A stretch of 64,000 nt of DNA from Lachnospiraceae bacterium OM04-12BH (GTDB taxonomy: Bacteria; Bacillota; Clostridia; Lachnospirales; Lachnospiraceae), in NCBI GenBank assembly GCA_003490145.1, contig QULQ01000009.1, forward strand, positions 1 to 64,000, in the 5' to 3' direction. The translations under genes and the position numbers were made by a program. The notes under the pieces were generated by a model. It was not told the DNA's origin, did no database searches, and saw only the letters and a program-made list of their open reading frames with translations. Of the stretch, positions 21,609-64,000 are shown piece after piece; position 1 is the first letter of the stretch; each line of letters starts with the position of its first letter.

Positions 21609-22964
21609 ATGGGATTAATCAAAGCAATCAAAGGTGCAGCAGGAGGGGTTCTGGAGGATCAGTGGCGTGAGTATTTCTATTGTGATGCACTGGAGTCAGA
21701 TGTACTGGTAACCAAGGGACACAGAAGAACTAAGGGGCGTGCTGCCAATAACAAGGGGGATGAAAATATCATTTCCAACGGTTCCGTGATCGCTGTCAAT
21801 GAAGGACAGTGTATGATCATCGTGGATCAGGGTAAGGTCGTTGAGATCTGTGCGGAGGCAGGAGAATTTACCTATGATGCTTCTATAGAGCCCAGTATCT
21901 TCTATGGCAAGCTGGGAGATAATATTGTGAATTCCTTTAAGACCTTTGGAAAGCGTATCACCTTTGCCGGAGATACAGCCAGGGATCAGAGGGTATATTT
22001 CTTTAATACCAAGGAAATTATGGGAAATAAATACGGTACGGCAAGCCCGGTACCGTTCCGTGTAGTAGACAATAACATCGGTCTTGATATTGATATCGCC
22101 ATCCGCTGTAATGGTGAATATTCCTATCATATTACAGACCCTATTCTTTTTTATACCCATGTCTGTGGCAATGTGACAGAGGATTATGAGAGAAGAGAGA
22201 TTGACAGCCAGTTAAAAACAGAGCTTATGACAGCACTGCAGCCTGCATTTGCAAAGATTTCCGCCATGGGTGTCCGTTACAGTGAAGTACCCGCACATAC
22301 CATGGAGCTGGCAGATGCCCTGAATGATGTCCTTTCTGAGAAGTGGGCACAGCTCAGAGGTATTGAGATCGTTTCCTTCGGTGTCAATTCCATGAAGGCA
22401 TCTGAGGAAGATGAGAAGATGATCAAGGATCTGCAGAAGAGTGCAGTCCTTCGTAATCCCAATATGGCAGCAGCAACGCTTGTCGGTGCACAGGCAGAGG
22501 CTATGAAGGCAGCAGCGTCCAATACCTCCACAGGGCCCATGATGGCATTTGCAGGTATGAATATGGCGACCCAGGCAGGCGGCATGAATGCACAGCAGCT
22601 GTTCCAGATGGGAGCAGCACAGCAGGCAGCACCCACGCAGCAGGCAGCTCCGGCTCAGGCAGCACCTGCACAGACAGCTGCAGCTTCACAGACGGGTGAC
22701 AGCTGGACCTGCAGCTGTGGGGCAGTCAATACTGGCAGGTTCTGTGTAGAGTGCGGAGCCAAAAAGCCGGAAGAGAATGGCTGGACCTGCAGCTGTGGTA
22801 CCTTGAATAAAGGCAAGTTCTGCAGCAACTGCGGCGCAAAGAAGCCTGCAGGCGTACCGCTTTACAAGTGTGACAAATGCGGCTGGGAGCCGGAAGATCC
22901 TAAGAATCCCCCGAAATTCTGTCCGGAGTGCGGAGATCCTTTTGACGATAACGATATCCATTAA
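21609..22964 (+). CDS. SPFH-domain protein with C-terminal zinc ribbons (YdjI-like)
   Basis: A 451-residue protein. Residues about 1-300 are an SPFH/virion-core-like domain (ALESDVLVTKGHRRTKGRAA, DYERREIDSQLKTELMTALQ). An Ala/Gln/Pro linker (about 337-365) follows, then three zinc ribbons (CSCGAVNTGRFCVECG, CSCGTLNKGKFCSNCG, CDKCGW...CPECG). The architecture matches Bacillus YdjI, a membrane-microdomain protein recruited by YdjG/YdjH in the PspA stress system. It is first in a three-gene operon whose other members resemble YdjG and YdjH. No pspA is present. Confidence 0.85.
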   Translation: MGLIKAIKGAAGGVLEDQWREYFYCDALESDVLVTKGHRRTKGRAANNKGDENIISNGSVIAVNEGQCMIIVDQGKVVEICAEAGEFTYDASIEPSIFYGKLGDNIVNSFKTFGKRITFAGDTARDQRVYFFNTKEIMGNKYGTASPVPFRVVDNNIGLDIDIAIRCNGEYSYHITDPILFYTHVCGNVTEDYERREIDSQLKTELMTALQPAFAKISAMGVRYSEVPAHTMELADALNDVLSEKWAQLRGIEIVSFGVNSMKASEEDEKMIKDLQKSAVLRNPNMAAATLVGAQAEAMKAAASNTSTGPMMAFAGMNMATQAGGMNAQQLFQMGAAQQAAPTQQAAPAQAAPAQTAAASQTGDSWTCSCGAVNTGRFCVECGAKKPEENGWTCSCGTLNKGKFCSNCGAKKPAGVPLYKCDKCGWEPEDPKNPPKFCPECGDPFDDNDIH

Positions 22965-47977: not shown

Positions 47978-49210
47978 TTACAGGCTTCTGAATGCCAGTC
48001 TTCCCATGGCTTCATAAGCGGCCGCACTGGGGTGCAGATGATCGCCACTGTCATACCCTGCACGGAAAGCGGCAGGGTGAGCAGGATCACGTACTTCTTT
48101 GTCAAAATCAATACAGGTATCGATCAGGTCTGTACTTCGGATGAAGTCATTGACCTGATTTTTTAATGTTTCCCGGAAGGGAGCATAGGTACGCCAGCCT
48201 TCAATGGGAAGCAGAGTACCCATGAAAATGTGATAACCCAGCTTACGGGCTTCCTGAATGTACCAGATAAGTCCTTCGGTCAGTTCATCAATGGTTGGCA
48301 GATCACTCATGGGACGGAAGGGATTCACGTCTGTGCCTACCGGGTGAATGATGTCGTTGATTCCCTGCTGGATGATGATCGTATCGGCACCGGCAACAGG
48401 AAGCTCGTGAGGGAAACGGACCTTTCCCATCAGTCCATAGGATTCATAAGTGATATTGTCATACTGGCGCAGGATCCTGGTGCCGCTGGCGGCTTTTCGG
48501 ATAATGGCAGTATGGTTATCAGGTACCTTCAGGCATTCTGCCAGCATGTAATCTGGCCAGTCCTGTGAGGTAATGGAATCACCATAGCAGATAACTGCAT
48601 GATTGCAGCTGTCTGTATAGAGGCTGATGTCACTTAAAAAATAAAAGCAGTTTGTCTTTCTTGTTTCATTCAGAGGAAGAACCTCAGCAGTTGAGTGGTT
48701 GTGAACTGAATAAAAGCCTTTTGAAAAAGGCCCGGTTGCAATGACACCTGAACGCATCAGGGTAAATTCTTTCAGATAAAAGCTGACAGAGACGGAATCA
48801 CCCTGGCTGACAGGAAAAGGAAGAGGATCACTGAGGATACGCTTCCCGGCGGGAATAGTAATGGAGACATTACCGTCAAAGGTAATCTGCCTCGAAGTTT
48901 CTTTTATTATGGATTCGGGAGTGTTTCCGGTCATGGCCACGAAGGCAGCAGAAATCGTAATAGATTCTGTGCCACAGAAATTATCAAAGGTAAATCGAAG
49001 GGCACTTCCTGCAAAAGGAACTTTGACAGGATAGCGCAGCGTGAGATCTTTGCTGTAGGTTTCTACTTTATGGTCTGTAATGGACATGGCATTTCCATAA
49101 ATGGCACACCAGTGCCTGCCAGCCTCTGCTTTGTATGTTGAATCTGCGTTGCTTCTGTTGTCTGGAGCTGCGATACTTCTTTTATCTATAGCTGTATTTG
49201 TTGTATTCAT
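47978..49210 (-). CDS. SGNH/GDSL hydrolase with N-terminal beta domain
   Basis: A 410-residue protein. An N-terminal beta-sandwich-like domain (about 35-175; VPFAGSALRFTFDNFCGTES) precedes the SGNH domain with block I CYGDSITSQDW, block III QQGINDI and the catalytic DHLHPSAAAYEAMG near the C-terminus. No signal peptide is seen. It is probably a cytoplasmic carbohydrate esterase. The start at 49210 follows gaaaggaac. It has its own promoter at 49291-49319, next to the 83-bp repeat array. Confidence 0.85.
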   Translation of the reverse strand: MNTTNTAIDKRSIAAPDNRSNADSTYKAEAGRHWCAIYGNAMSITDHKVETYSKDLTLRYPVKVPFAGSALRFTFDNFCGTESITISAAFVAMTGNTPESIIKETSRQITFDGNVSITIPAGKRILSDPLPFPVSQGDSVSVSFYLKEFTLMRSGVIATGPFSKGFYSVHNHSTAEVLPLNETRKTNCFYFLSDISLYTDSCNHAVICYGDSITSQDWPDYMLAECLKVPDNHTAIIRKAASGTRILRQYDNITYESYGLMGKVRFPHELPVAGADTIIIQQGINDIIHPVGTDVNPFRPMSDLPTIDELTEGLIWYIQEARKLGYHIFMGTLLPIEGWRTYAPFRETLKNQVNDFIRSTDLIDTCIDFDKEVRDPAHPAAFRAGYDSGDHLHPSAAAYEAMGRLAFRSL

Positions 49211-49290
49211 CTGTGTTCCTTTCCAAGACGGGTATGTAATCTCTAACAGGGTGACTTTCCGAAAGGTTTGATAACCCATATAATACAGGT

Positions 49291-49319
49291 ATTATACAGC
49301 GGAGCAGAATTCCTGACAA
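49291..49319 (-). promoter_or_regulatory. Promoter of the SGNH hydrolase gene
   Basis: Read on the minus strand, TTGTCA (49319-49314) and TATAAT (49296-49291) have a 17-base spacer. The first array unit begins about 35 bases upstream of the -35. Confidence 0.75.
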
Positions 49320-49350
49320 GAATCACAGAGGAAGCAATCTGAGAAAGCAG

Positions 49351-50150
49351 AGCCGAGCGGGGCATGGGAGAGTGAAAAGGAGCCATCATGCCCCGCAGGC
49401 AGGGAAAAGTGAAGAGGAAAAAAGGGAAAACAGAGCGGAGCGGGGCATGGGAGAGTGAAAAGGAGCAAACATGCCCCGCGGGCAGGGAAAAGTGAAGAGG
49501 AAAAAAGGGAAAACAGAGCGGAGCGGGGCAGGGGAGAGTGAAAAGGAGCAAACATGCCCCGCGGGCAGGGAAAAGTGAAGAGGAAAAAAGGGAAAACAGA
49601 GCCGAGCGGGGCATGAGAGTGAGAAAAGGAGCAATCATGCCCCGCAGGAAGGGGAAAATGAAGAGGAAAAGAAGGAAAACAGAGCCGAGCGGGGCATGGG
49701 AGAGTGAAAAGAGGCAAACATGCCCCGCGGGCAGGGAAAAGTGAAGAGGAAAAGCATGAAAAACAGAGCGGAGCGGGGCATGGGAGAGTGAAAAGGAGCA
49801 AACATGCCCCGCGGGCAGGGAAAAGTGAAGAGGAAAAAAGGGAAAGCAGAGCGGAGCGGGGCAGGGGAGAGTGAAAAGGAGCAAACATGCCCCGCGGGCA
49901 GGGAAAAGTGAAGAGGAAAAGAAGGAAAACAGAGCCGAGCGGGGCATGAGAGTGAGAAAAGAGGCAAACATGCCCCGCAGGCAGGGAAAAGTGAAGAGGA
50001 AAAGAGGGAAAGCAGAGCGGAGCGGGGCATGGGAGAGTGGAAAGAGGCAATCATGCCCCGCGGGCAGGGAAAAGTGAAGAGGAAAAGAAGGAAAACAGAG
50101 CGGAGCGGGGCATGGGAGAGTGGAAAGAAGCAATCATGCCCCGCAGGCAG
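49351..50150. repeat. 83-bp tandem array, ten units, each with an inverted repeat
   Basis: Ten units have left arms GCGGGGCATG starting at 49357, 49440, 49523, 49606, 49689, 49773, 49856, 49939, 50022 and 50105. All spacings are 83 except one of 84. Each has a right arm CATGCCCCGC exactly 30 bases after the left arm start, a 40-base footprint in every unit. Units 3 and 7 change the left arm to GCGGGGCAGG. Units 4 and 8 share a CATGAGAGTGAG variant, so units 2-5 and 6-9 look like a duplicated 333-base block. The arms are joined by purine-rich plus-strand spacers. The array fills the divergent intergenic space between the SGNH gene and the purine permease. The rest of 49211-50297 holds only the two promoters and A-rich sequence. 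Confidence 0.97.
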
Positions 50151-50297
50151 AGAAAGCTGTGAGAATAGGAGAAAAATCAGGACTGACAGGCAGAAAAAGA
50201 AGGAAAAAGAGCTGAAAAAGAAAAAAAGAATCCCACAGATATAAATTATATGATACACTGGTTTTGTCTGTTAACAAAATGAGAAGGAGAGATAGAA

Positions 50298-51656
50298 ATG
50301 GACAAATTTTTCAAGCTGAAAGAGCGTGGAACTGACGTAAGGACAGAGTTTATTGCCGGTATCACGACTTTCATGACAATGGCCTATATCCTTGCCGTTA
50401 ACCCCAGTATTCTGGGAGCAGCCGGTATGGATACAGGCGCAGTTTTTACAGCAACCGCATTAGCATCTGCGCTTGCATCAATCTGTATGGCACTGTTTGC
50501 CAACCTGCCTTTCGTACTTTCTGCAGGAATGGGACTGAATGCCTATTTTGCCTACACAGTTGTGCTGGGAATGGGATACAGCTGGGAGGTTGCCCTGACA
50601 GCCGTATTTGTTGAAGGTATTGTTTTCATCCTGCTTTCCCTGACCAATGTCAGAGAGGCAATTTTCAATGCAATTCCAGGAGGTCTTAAGGTAGCAGTTT
50701 CCGTTGGTATTGGATTATTCATCACCTTCATCGGACTGCAGAATGCACACATCGTAGTAGACGGTTCTACCCTGGTTGGACTGTTTTCTTTTAAGGGATC
50801 TATTCAGGCAGGAACCTTTAATTCTGAAGGAATTACTGTCGTACTGGCACTGCTTGGCATTCTGATCACTTCATTCCTTGTTATCAAGAATGTAAAGGGA
50901 AATATTCTCCTTGGTATTCTGATCACATGGGTACTGGGAATTATCTGCCAGCTTACCGGATTATATGTACCAGCACCGGATGCAGGCTTCTACAGCCTGA
51001 TCCCCAGTGGCATCGTATCTGCACCGGCTTCCCTTGCACCGACACTGTTCAAGATGGATTTCTCTGTGATCGGATCACTGAACTTCCTGGTGGTTGTATT
51101 TGCATTCCTGTTCGTAGATATCTTTGATACCCTTGGAACACTGATCGGATGTGCGACCAAGGCTGATATGCTGGATAAGGATGGCAAGCTTCCTGGAATC
51201 AAAGGCGCTCTGATGGCAGATGCTGTAGGTACTACTGTAGGTGCGTGCTTTGGTACATCTACAATTACAACCTTTGTAGAATCTTCATCAGGTATTGCAG
51301 AAGGCGGACGTACCGGACTTACTTCTATTGTATCAGGAGCACTGTTCCTGCTGGCACTGTTCTTCTCACCTATTTTTCTTGCAATTCCTTCCTTTGCAAC
51401 AGCACCGGCACTTGTCGTTGTTGGTTTCTTTATGATGCAGCAGGTAGCAAAGATTGCATGGAATGATATGCTGGAAGCAATTCCCGCATTTATCTGTATC
51501 TTTGCTATGCCTTTTATGTATTCTATTTCAGAAGGTATCGCATTTGGCGTTATCTCCTATGTAGTTCTTCATGCAGCTGCAGGCAAGGCAAAGAAGATCA
51601 CCCCGCTTATGTGGGTACTGGCAGTACTGTTTATTCTGAAGTACATCTTCCTGTAA
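50298..51656 (+). CDS. NCS2-family purine permease (AzgA-like)
   Basis: A 452-residue permease with about 12 helices and AzgA-type signatures (GITTFMTMAYILAVNPSILG, LPFVLSAGMGLNAYFAYTVV, TFVESSSGIAEGGRTGLTSI). It imports adenine, guanine or hypoxanthine with protons. I see no purine riboswitch in the 150 bases upstream. The gene follows the 83-bp array, which could influence its expression. The ATG has gaaggagag upstream. Confidence 0.9.
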   Translation: MDKFFKLKERGTDVRTEFIAGITTFMTMAYILAVNPSILGAAGMDTGAVFTATALASALASICMALFANLPFVLSAGMGLNAYFAYTVVLGMGYSWEVALTAVFVEGIVFILLSLTNVREAIFNAIPGGLKVAVSVGIGLFITFIGLQNAHIVVDGSTLVGLFSFKGSIQAGTFNSEGITVVLALLGILITSFLVIKNVKGNILLGILITWVLGIICQLTGLYVPAPDAGFYSLIPSGIVSAPASLAPTLFKMDFSVIGSLNFLVVVFAFLFVDIFDTLGTLIGCATKADMLDKDGKLPGIKGALMADAVGTTVGACFGTSTITTFVESSSGIAEGGRTGLTSIVSGALFLLALFFSPIFLAIPSFATAPALVVVGFFMMQQVAKIAWNDMLEAIPAFICIFAMPFMYSISEGIAFGVISYVVLHAAAGKAKKITPLMWVLAVLFILKYIFL

Positions 51657-62804: not shown

Positions 62805-64000
62805 ATGAATAAGCTGAATCGTGTGATGCTGATGCTGATCGCTATGGCTGCTATCATGCTGCTGGCTGTAGGGATTGACAAAGGGCTGCAACGGCACGAA
62901 AGAAAAATGTGGGAAATAAAAAGAGAAGCCGTTTATGAAGAAGCAAGGGCGGATATTGCCAGTATGCAGGCGAATATCCAGACTTTATCTGAGGATCCGG
63001 AGGCTCTTATTTCCTATATAGAAGAAAATGAGCTGAATTACACAGAAAAAAAGGAAGTTTTTCTGGAAGAACCGGATAGAGCAGAAGGCGATGGTTCTGT
63101 GTCAGACAATGAAGCATATAAAGGAGAAGCTGGAAATCTGGTATCCGGGAATTCTGTACCGGGGAATTTGGTATACGGGAATTTCGTATCTGGAAATTCC
63201 GTATCTGGAAATTCTGAATCTGAGGATTCTATATCCGGGAATTCCATATCCGGAAATCTGGAATGGGGGAGCTTTCTGCCGGGCGGTCTTGTATCCGGCA
63301 ATCTGCTTTTTCTCGGAGAAGAGAGGGAGATCTGTGCTTCCTACGAAAATACCATGAAGATCAACAGACAGGATAAAAAGATCATTGCTGACAGTGAGGT
63401 GGATTTTTCAGACTGTAAGATTACCTGTCTTGGAGATAGTATTACGGCAGCATCTAATCTGGATACCATAGAGAATTATCAGTCTATGTCCTATCCGTCC
63501 CAGCTGGGAGAAATACTTGGCGCAGAAGAGGTAGTGAATCTCGGGATCGGAGGTTCTTCCATCGGGCGGTACTGGGAGAATGCTTTCGTAGACAGATACC
63601 AGGAGATCCCGGAGGATACAGATGTGATCCTTGTCATGGGAGGAACCAATGACGGGTTCTGTGCTTCTGAAAAGGAGCTTGGGAGCCTGGAGAAAAGAGA
63701 AAAGGATACCTTTACAGGAGATCTGGATGAGCTTCTCTTTGGACTGCAGAAGGATTATCCGGATGCGCAGATCGTACTGATCACGCCTCTTCCAAATGTA
63801 TTGCATGATCTGCTGAGGAAAAGCAGGGATTATCTTCTGCCGCAGTCAGCCTTTGTCAGGGTGATGAAACAGCTTGGAGAAGAGCATGGGATACCGGTGA
63901 TTGATCTGTACAATTCCAATTTTCTGGATACGCATGATGCAGCAGTGATCCACGCACTGATGCCGGACGGCGTTCATGGTAACGAAACCGGTTACCGTAT
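62805..64000 (+). CDS. Membrane-anchored SGNH hydrolase with VSGN repeats, 3' cut by window
   Basis: The frame is open from ATG 62805 to the window end (398 codons seen). An N-terminal signal anchor (about 6-24) is followed by a charged helical stalk (30-85). A low-complexity linker at about 107-165 holds repeated five-residue units such as VSGNS and ISGNS. The SGNH domain comes next: ITCLGDSITAASN (nucleophile Ser), LVMGGTNDGF and PDGVHGNETGY with the catalytic Asp/His. It probably removes acetyl or acyl groups from surface polysaccharide. It begins 20 bases after rlmB. Confidence 0.85.
   Translation, partial: MNKLNRVMLMLIAMAAIMLLAVGIDKGLQRHERKMWEIKREAVYEEARADIASMQANIQTLSEDPEALISYIEENELNYTEKKEVFLEEPDRAEGDGSVSDNEAYKGEAGNLVSGNSVPGNLVYGNFVSGNSVSGNSESEDSISGNSISGNLEWGSFLPGGLVSGNLLFLGEEREICASYENTMKINRQDKKIIADSEVDFSDCKITCLGDSITAASNLDTIENYQSMSYPSQLGEILGAEEVVNLGIGGSSIGRYWENAFVDRYQEIPEDTDVILVMGGTNDGFCASEKELGSLEKREKDTFTGDLDELLFGLQKDYPDAQIVLITPLPNVLHDLLRKSRDYLLPQSAFVRVMKQLGEEHGIPVIDLYNSNFLDTHDAAVIHALMPDGVHGNETGYR

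Follow-up and report, generated by a model that had tools for sequence, protein, structure and literature searches.

The ten interrupted palindromes arrayed in the window (the whole stretch of 64,000 nucleotides from Lachnospiraceae bacterium OM04-12BH that was analysed) are understood as a strain-variable, dispersed palindromic satellite, probably forming a helically phased row of DNA sites; for this reading as a whole we would put the probability at around 0.4. It builds on the anatomy of the array, its relatives in other genomes, the covariation of the palindrome arms, the fidelity of length at this locus, the change of copy number and the clustering of periods. We propose that the array is the local, copy-variable member of a dispersed intergenic satellite class present in some Lachnospiraceae-type genomes. 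Its unit would be an interrupted palindrome of ~36-45 bp whose arms change yet remain complementary and whose purine-rich loop, in the sets examined, contains an A-run; the units would follow one another head to tail, spacer length being kept better than spacer sequence, and successive palindromes would be spaced at close to 5, 6, 7 or 8 full turns of the helix and so share one face of the DNA. Such arrays may work as double-stranded DNA that offers phased sites to a dimeric or structure-reading protein, and their copy number would change by slippage or unequal recombination. Arms that change and stay complementary suggest a folded or two-fold-symmetric site; near-integer helical steps suggest double-stranded DNA.

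The array in the window and its flanks

Tandem repeat analysis of the window with TRF returned an array of period 83 with 9.8 copies and 90% matches, within which a dyad scan tolerating at most 3 mismatches located ten 40-bp interrupted palindromes of the form GCGGGGCATG-N20-CATGCCCCGC, all in a single orientation (Table 1). Eight are perfect and two carry one mismatch; the steps between them are 83 bp eight times and 84 bp once, and 100 shuffles of the window yielded no such dyad. The ten-unit array with a period of 83 bp, once 84, that had been read from the sequence is thus confirmed. Of the invariant 40-base footprint claimed for it, the length stands and the sequence does not, since the loop varies as much as the spacer. 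Likewise, the claim that dyads are almost unchanged while spacers vary holds for the arms alone (arms vs rest, p=0.0015) and not for the whole 40-bp dyad against the spacer (p=0.20). Counted over nine of the ten units, the last being without a full spacer, the variable columns number 1/20 in the arms, 8/20 in the loop and 17/43 in the spacer, with mean pairwise diversities of 0.039 and 0.000 in the two arms, 0.156 in the loop and 0.121 in the spacer. Units differ by at most 19 of 83 aligned bases, partly owing to the single 84-bp unit, and a block duplication is visible in that units 2 and 6 differ by 1 base and units 3 and 7 by 2, with a 416-bp period reported by TRF. The window holds further tandem repeats at 63141-63257 and 22641-22846 (periods 15 and 78).

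Table 1. Coordinates of the array, its flanking features and related loci
Feature	Sequence or locus	Coordinates	Strand	Basis or remark
Whole tandem array	window	49343..50155	+ (purine-rich strand)	TRF; dyads span 49357-50144
Dyad 1	window	49357..49396	+	dyad scan
Dyad 2	window	49440..49479	+	dyad scan
Dyad 3	window	49523..49562	+	left arm GCGGGGCAGG, one mispair
Dyad 4	window	49606..49645	+	dyad scan
Dyad 5	window	49689..49728	+	only 84-bp step comes after (to dyad 6)
Dyad 6	window	49773..49812	+	dyad scan
Dyad 7	window	49856..49895	+	left arm GCGGGGCAGG, one mispair
Dyad 8	window	49939..49978	+	dyad scan
Dyad 9	window	50022..50061	+	dyad scan
Dyad 10	window	50105..50144	+	dyad scan
SGNH/GDSL hydrolase gene	window	47978..49210	-	PF13472/PF00657
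NCS2-family permease gene	window	50298..51656	+	PF00860
Promoter-like site for SGNH gene, TTGTCA-17-TATAAT	window	49291..49319	-	11/12 consensus match only
Promoter-like site, would transcribe array purine strand towards permease	window	49268..49295	+	10/12 consensus match only
Promoter-like site, would transcribe array pyrimidine strand	window	50245..50274	-	11/12 consensus match only
Loci with the ten G299 arrays	L472, L473, L476, L483, L240, L241
Array behind comEC	L205	2963-3320
Array behind comEC	L245	2358-2805
Array behind comEC	L289	3176-3400
Stand-alone PD-(D/E)XK-type gene	L205	3320-4102
Stand-alone PD-(D/E)XK-type gene	L245	2805-3596
Stand-alone PD-(D/E)XK-type gene	L240	1425-2207
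Stand-alone PD-(D/E)XK-type gene	L424	17863-18654

ORF calls and Pfam bear out the location between two divergent genes, the array filling the gap between the GDSL/SGNH gene and the permease gene. For the SGNH ORF (433 aa with the longest start at 49279), the eight best relatives align only from residue 43-56, and the ATG at 49210 would be the preferred start. The SGNH promoter that had been placed about 35 bases from the array corresponds to the promoter-like site 37 bp from the first dyad, an 11/12 consensus match only. There is no Rfam match in 48500-51000, hence no known purine riboswitch before the permease gene. GC skew is positive in 16/16 blocks of 4 kb in the window and, if it is a guide, the purine-rich (+) strand of the array is the leading strand. 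Several long minus-strand ORFs (207-296 aa) run over the array; given that their frames differ where they overlap and that 83 is not divisible by 3, we take them for composition artefacts of the pyrimidine-rich strand, and Pfam gave no match for the three tested. No array of the window type lies upstream of the best 30 permease relatives, 29 SGNH loci have neither this dyad nor any dyad array, and 0/7 genomes of the genus of the best permease match have one.

Copy number, relatives and the changing palindrome

A protein search with one of the minus-strand artefact ORFs, in which scoring was confined to the 7994 candidates with most words in common, yielded 20 proteins of other assemblies. In 11/20 both ends match the window flanks, so these represent the same locus, probably in other strains; the matching flanks suggest strains of one species. 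Judged by length, the 11 hold 9, 9, 9, 7.5, 6.1, 6.1, 5, 5, 5, 5 and 5 units. The comparison between strains called for by the original prediction thus gives 5-9 units in other assemblies vs 10 in the window, which is the behaviour of a satellite or VNTR (tandem repeats differing in copy number between assemblies) and makes the array a ready strain marker. The 105 steps decoded in all 20 ORFs comprise 83 bp (95 times), 84 (three), 82 (two), 167 (two) and 43, 92 and 125 (once each), a count possibly biased by a similarity search that may favour regular arrays. The 167-bp steps are probably two steps with one missed dyad, and the 92-bp step is off helical phase. As 83 is no multiple of 3, the ORFs already read several frames, so a change of length need not have closed them. 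Over the 124 units of these ORFs, residue diversity is 0.065 in the arm not used for detection, 0.292 in the loop and 0.358 in the spacer; the arm value is about five times below the others, with 0/20000 permutations as extreme. At this locus, arms and step are kept, and loop and spacer drift. When two other arrays were translated, the database returned 0 and 1 match.

Beyond the locus, an exact-arm scan of 84,980 species genomes produced 116 stretches, three of which are relatives (L057 and L116 from one genome, and L059). The two genomes concerned, whose dyads are built in the same way, are Lachnospiraceae bacterium SUG216 (G001) and G002, the latter recorded as uncultured Bacteroides yet included in the family set around G001. 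Of the remaining 113 stretches, loci of other bacteria amounting to 870 kb, seven read by eye looked like unrelated hairpins, and the whole set contained 6 tandem repeats, 0 with a significant dyad. Seven other family genomes carry relatives, six of them as arrays, which answers the proposed search of related genomes in the affirmative. A loose pattern matched 7/397 family genomes (reversed control 0), model R1 matched 5/397, and model R2 matched 8/392 order genomes at E<=0.01, five of them weakly (G457, G496, G514, G608, G709; best E 0.0006-0.007). At E<=0.1 the rows number 27 in G001, 20 in G359, 10 each in G088 and G002 and 3 in G373, some being one site on both strands. G726 was found among the relatives of a permease carrier (1/83).

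The arrays of G001 step by 72 bp at several loci, with 51 bp at one further locus; elsewhere the steps are 72-73 bp at five loci in G359, 52 and 51-52 bp in G088, 74 bp in G373, 63-64 bp in G299 (from dyad-based searches) and 51-52 bp in G726, where one array steps 51, 62, 52 and 51. G002 shows scattered singles and one opposite pair (C2), no array; G319, not among the seven, has two single dyad-like sites and no array. Ten array loci touch a contig end, so the true arrays are longer there. A 284-bp stretch, array included, recurs at 94% identity in G001 (L196 1985-2267 and L203 2839-3122), so a larger segment has been copied there. Neither the seven congeners of G001 nor the one congener of G359 carry any, which leaves only G001 and G359 themselves positive in their genera (1/8; 1/2). 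Viral contigs gave 0 matches for the strict pattern and 26 single matches, no array, for a looser one; tandem-pattern matches there (at least 120 stretches) were taken, uninspected, as noise from GC-rich contigs. The spread over genomes is patchy and speaks against wide conservation. Still, the marks by which a passive minisatellite was to be recognised, no trace in relatives and decayed arms, are contradicted on both counts: relatives exist, and the arms are conserved in 124 units.

A dyad-blind survey (TRF and a stem search with no fixed dyad) of stretches from three positive and four other genomes revealed seven arrays at 63-65 bp in 278 kb of G299, one 75-bp array in G001 and one 53-bp array in G359. 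Together with three found before, the ten G299 arrays fall into five dissimilar groups with the common 63-65 bp step and with arms CGGGGAAA, GC/GTAGGCA, AGACATACC, CCCCATGCAT and ACGTGGC; 7/45 pairs match, all within groups, and no similarity is detectable between groups. The stem is clearly longer than in shuffled units in 4/9 new arrays (L472 7005 and 15582, L483, L442); in the other five it does not exceed the longest stem among 30 shuffles, or the automatic search had picked another stem. By a crude test, 3/7 of the G299 survey arrays overlap open frames. In this period range, the four control genomes (100 kb each) contained one coding repeat and otherwise no tandem array, and a further 80 kb from G726 and G088 was free of tandem arrays. 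Not taken as dyad arrays were several tandem repeats whose period falls outside the clusters, namely L439 (100 bp, tRNA-like), L478 (46 bp, two copies), L122 (45 bp), L108 (40 bp) and L244 3829-3915 (23/46 bp), as well as those inside open frames.

The palindrome is maintained by compensation, its arms varying yet staying complementary. An outer GCGGGG/CCCCGC is common to the dyad set, partly through search design; the inner arms differ (CATG/CATG, CCTG/CAGG, TACA/TGTA, TATA/TATA, CCT/AGG, AA/TT). With one representative per locus (25 loci from the window and seven genomes), inner pairs 7-8 match in 44/50 cases against a permuted mean of 24.2 and a maximum of 36 in 5000 permutations, and pairs 7-10 match in 77/100 (permuted mean 45.9, maximum 63); part of the set came from stem-based searches, and loci of one genome are related. 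The representative of G359 C27 was taken out of register, and the observed match is lower for it. The analysis used 75 of the copies found, leaving out three edge units of G001 C42, all units of G359 C146, C244 and C37, G002 C1, C7 and one of C2, and one unit each of G088 C23, G299 C113, G373, G726 C1 and G726 C17. With a pattern that ignores the inner arms (24 distinct matches), pair 7 is formed in 22 by three pair types, pair 8 in 17, pair 9 in 16 and pair 10 in 15. An A-run of at least 3 in the loop is present in 67/67 distinct dyads, a feature that the searches favour.

Helical steps, genomic surroundings and rival explanations

The periods of the dyad arrays cluster at 51-53, 62-65, 72-75 and 83-84 bp, near 5, 6, 7 and 8 helical turns, 62 occurring as one step only; with 10.5 bp to the turn, the phases extend from -0.14 (51, 72) to +0.14 and +0.19 turn (75, 65). 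Against periods drawn evenly from 48-88, the phase test gives p=0.00005 when each genome and class contributes one value (n=11), p=0.025 when only the four clusters are counted and p=0.0037 when any fitted period of 6 to 25 bp is allowed; the earlier six-class set had given p=0.007. The best-fitting repeat is 10.5-10.6 for six classes and 10.7-10.8, a little long, for n=11. The same-face phasing suggested for the window gains support from these step clusters near whole turns in other genomes (p 0.00005 to 0.025), within the limits of a post hoc test designed after the data were seen and of inherited periods that reduce the independent evidence. Spacers measure 12, 23, 27-28, 33, 34 and 43 bp, and the 33-bp length is common to G001 and G359 without common sequence, as identities of 0.09-0.42 are within the shuffled range.

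The surroundings were compared at 28 loci (window, arrays and single copies, G002 C1 and C2 left out), genes being counted as long ORFs, some of them doubtful. The purine strand is that of the nearest ORFs in 34/46 cases (p=0.0016), agrees with 10/11 co-directional ORF pairs and is the leading strand by local GC skew at 23/28 loci (p=0.0009); effects of gene strand and leading strand cannot be told apart. Among the 18 loci with both neighbours called, window included, 11 are co-directional, 4 convergent (all single copies) and 3 divergent, so the divergent setting is real at the window and not typical of the class. An array lies directly behind comEC in G001, G359 and G726, with steps of 51, 72-73 and 51-52 bp and differing dyads; the gene was recognised by PF03772 in L245 and L205 and by alignment to comEC at E 3e-87 in L289, and the three ComEC proteins are about 32-42% identical. 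At L289 3386-3400 in G726, the array ends inside a dyad arm and is followed by an apparent membrane acyltransferase fragment (named by eye), as if a rearrangement had broken at the dyad.

In G001 and G359 the comEC array is followed by a gene for one and the same protein of 261-264 aa (51% identical between the two). The second half of this protein is similar to the C-terminal end of PADLOC PDC-S68 (E 3e-30 to 1e-28), HEAT_CxxC_PDDEXK is also matched by two of three relatives (E 2e-5, 2e-6), and by these similarities it would be a PD-(D/E)XK nuclease. A third relative adjoins the G299 C55 array; for the fourth, a 53-bp, 7.3-copy array ends 77 bp upstream. The array lies on the upstream side of the gene at 4/4 loci seen, three of which were found through the array and only the fourth independently of arrays, in a tblastn search over 732 kb of G359 and G001 chosen by contig number, from which three G001 contigs already known to carry arrays were excluded. 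No further relative occurs in 80 sampled stretches (G359, G001, G299), the array loci and the window, so most arrays have no such gene nearby. Viral contigs gave no confirmed relative; 7 plasmid records match roughly the last half of the protein, 5 inside AAA family ATPases and 1 in a RecQ-type gene. The association is a lead, not proof. It feeds a bolder conception that we regard as quite unlikely, a genome-wide system in which tandem palindromes of any sequence, set at a genome-specific, helically quantised step, would be produced or recognised by a protein that senses structure; the candidate is the stand-alone PD-(D/E)XK-type protein.

The main rival of the phased-site reading, doubtful in our view and still to be taken seriously, is a satellite that is neutral or amplifies itself: because slippage in replication and unequal exchange are promoted by palindromes, these would multiply of their own accord, concerted evolution would keep arms and step, the periods would be inherited, and helical clustering would be chance or a by-product. 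Variable copy number at the window locus, the block duplication within the window array, the G001 arrays within larger repeated segments and the patchy spread all agree with it, but arms conserved well beyond loop and spacer and covarying between loci do not, nor do a step that hardly changes among units differing by up to 19 of 83 bases and five dissimilar G299 groups with one step; it explains most facts except the step rule. Phased sites, for their part, are weakened by the post hoc test, the possibly inherited periods, the off-phase 92-bp step, the patchy spread and a dyad significant in only 4/9 new arrays, and arms that vary freely are easier to reconcile with a folded hairpin than with a sequence-specific DNA site. 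In an RNA-level rival, the purine strand would be transcribed with the neighbour gene and the unit hairpins would stabilise or regulate the message. The strand agreement with neighbours (34/46; 10/11 co-directional pairs), arms that stay complementary though their sequence is not conserved, promoter-like sites flanking the window array and a folding of that array that surpasses 20 shuffles by a wide margin (z -18.2 on +, -13.0 on -) are all as this would predict. The leading strand, however, would lead one to expect the same orientation, mispairs are not biased overall towards wobble on one strand, Rfam has no match around the window array, and RNA gives no reason for helical steps. Explaining arms and orientation and not the steps, an RNA hairpin array appears unlikely.

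The other explanations fare far worse. A cluster of intrinsic terminators, suggested by the single copies between convergent ORFs at four loci and by TTTTCTC after one single copy, is very improbable given loops of ~20 nt, most of the units inspected without a T-run directly after the stem, and many arrays between co-directional ORFs; a GC-rich hairpin with a direct T-run fits a few units only, and the 16 terminator-like matches inside the window array use other pairings. Even less credible are REP/BIME elements spread by RAYT transposases: dispersed intergenic palindromes are common to both and Y1 transposase genes occur in 3/6 positive genomes tested, but the other 3/6 have none, GTAG, CGTC or their complements are near at most 7/67 dyads, and arrays run head to tail instead of alternating. 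Coding repeats, with the minus-strand ORFs of 207-296 aa and the 20 database proteins taken as real proteins, have a practically negligible chance, as the frame changes from unit to unit, the ORFs overlap in different frames without a Pfam match, and arm complementarity has no coding reason. We retain the phased satellite as the best explanation. If the steps do follow such a rule, the distance in helical turns would be a mechanical code of the intergenic repeats of gut-type bacteria, kept while the letters drift, and the rule would point to an unknown DNA-organising or DNA-processing protein.

Comparison with known repeat families

A CRISPR array is rejected because the nine window spacers are near copies of one another (mean 3.3, maximum 7 mismatches over 35 bp). 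REPs and BIMEs, as described in the parts of the sources consulted, are short intergenic palindromes, single and clustered, and in this resemble the present dyads (PMC3733652, PMC2817692). According to the same parts, REPs bear a GTAG or CGTC tag, and BIMEs combine alternating orientation with a linked RAYT (PMC3733652, PMC2817692); the main text of PMC3733652 is without the words Firmicutes and Clostridi. Here, by contrast, tags are rare: within 8 nt of 67 distinct dyads, GTAG occurs once, CTAC once, GACG five times and CGTC 0 times, on which REP membership is rejected. A cognate RAYT is lacking as well in half of the six genomes tested, the Y1 transposase domain PF01797 being found in G001, G299 and G373 and absent from G002, G088 and G359, all draft genomes; its matches lie on contigs other than those of the known arrays, except in G373, where it is ~39 kb away. 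BIME membership is rejected since the arrays run head to tail, with the one opposite pair in G002 C2.

Stem-loop families of low-GC Firmicutes are likewise intergenic and often near gene 3' ends, with a repeat family in Enterococcus, but the portion of that source consulted describes no tandem, evenly spaced arrays and mentions no Lachnospiraceae (PMC1590033). Dispersed non-coding satellite families with long repeats were, in the part consulted of a survey of 119 bacterial reference species, found only in Leptospira interrogans; they share with our arrays the dispersed families of non-coding tandem repeats and differ in that neither a palindrome rule nor a helical step is described there (PMC6749651). 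In the literature as far as it was accessible, subscription titles being largely outside the scope, no description of this array design was found among the results listed. The original prediction that no described system has this design stands to that extent, whereas the kind is not wholly new, STAR and REP being comparable. Taken overall, the interpretation first read from the sequence is partly supported: its phasing gains support, its refuting marks are absent, and its invariant footprint does not hold.

MIRU of mycobacteria are intergenic tandem repeats that serve as variable-number markers. STAR of staphylococci is a 14-bp direct repeat with one consensus, T(G/A/T)TGTTG(G/T)GGCCC(C/A), in the excerpts consulted (PMC3532100). 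That consensus occurs 0 times in 11 arrays and the window, and membership in the family is rejected; the motif here is a ~40-bp palindrome whose arms change between arrays. In other respects the two are alike: STAR is equally intergenic and dispersed, alternates a GC-rich motif with recurring sequence of at least 40 bp, varies in copy number between strains, has other neighbours in each species and, in the same excerpts, is of unknown function (PMC3532100). By kind, the array of the window is accordingly best classed, on these comparisons, as a dispersed satellite with copy-number change, like STAR.
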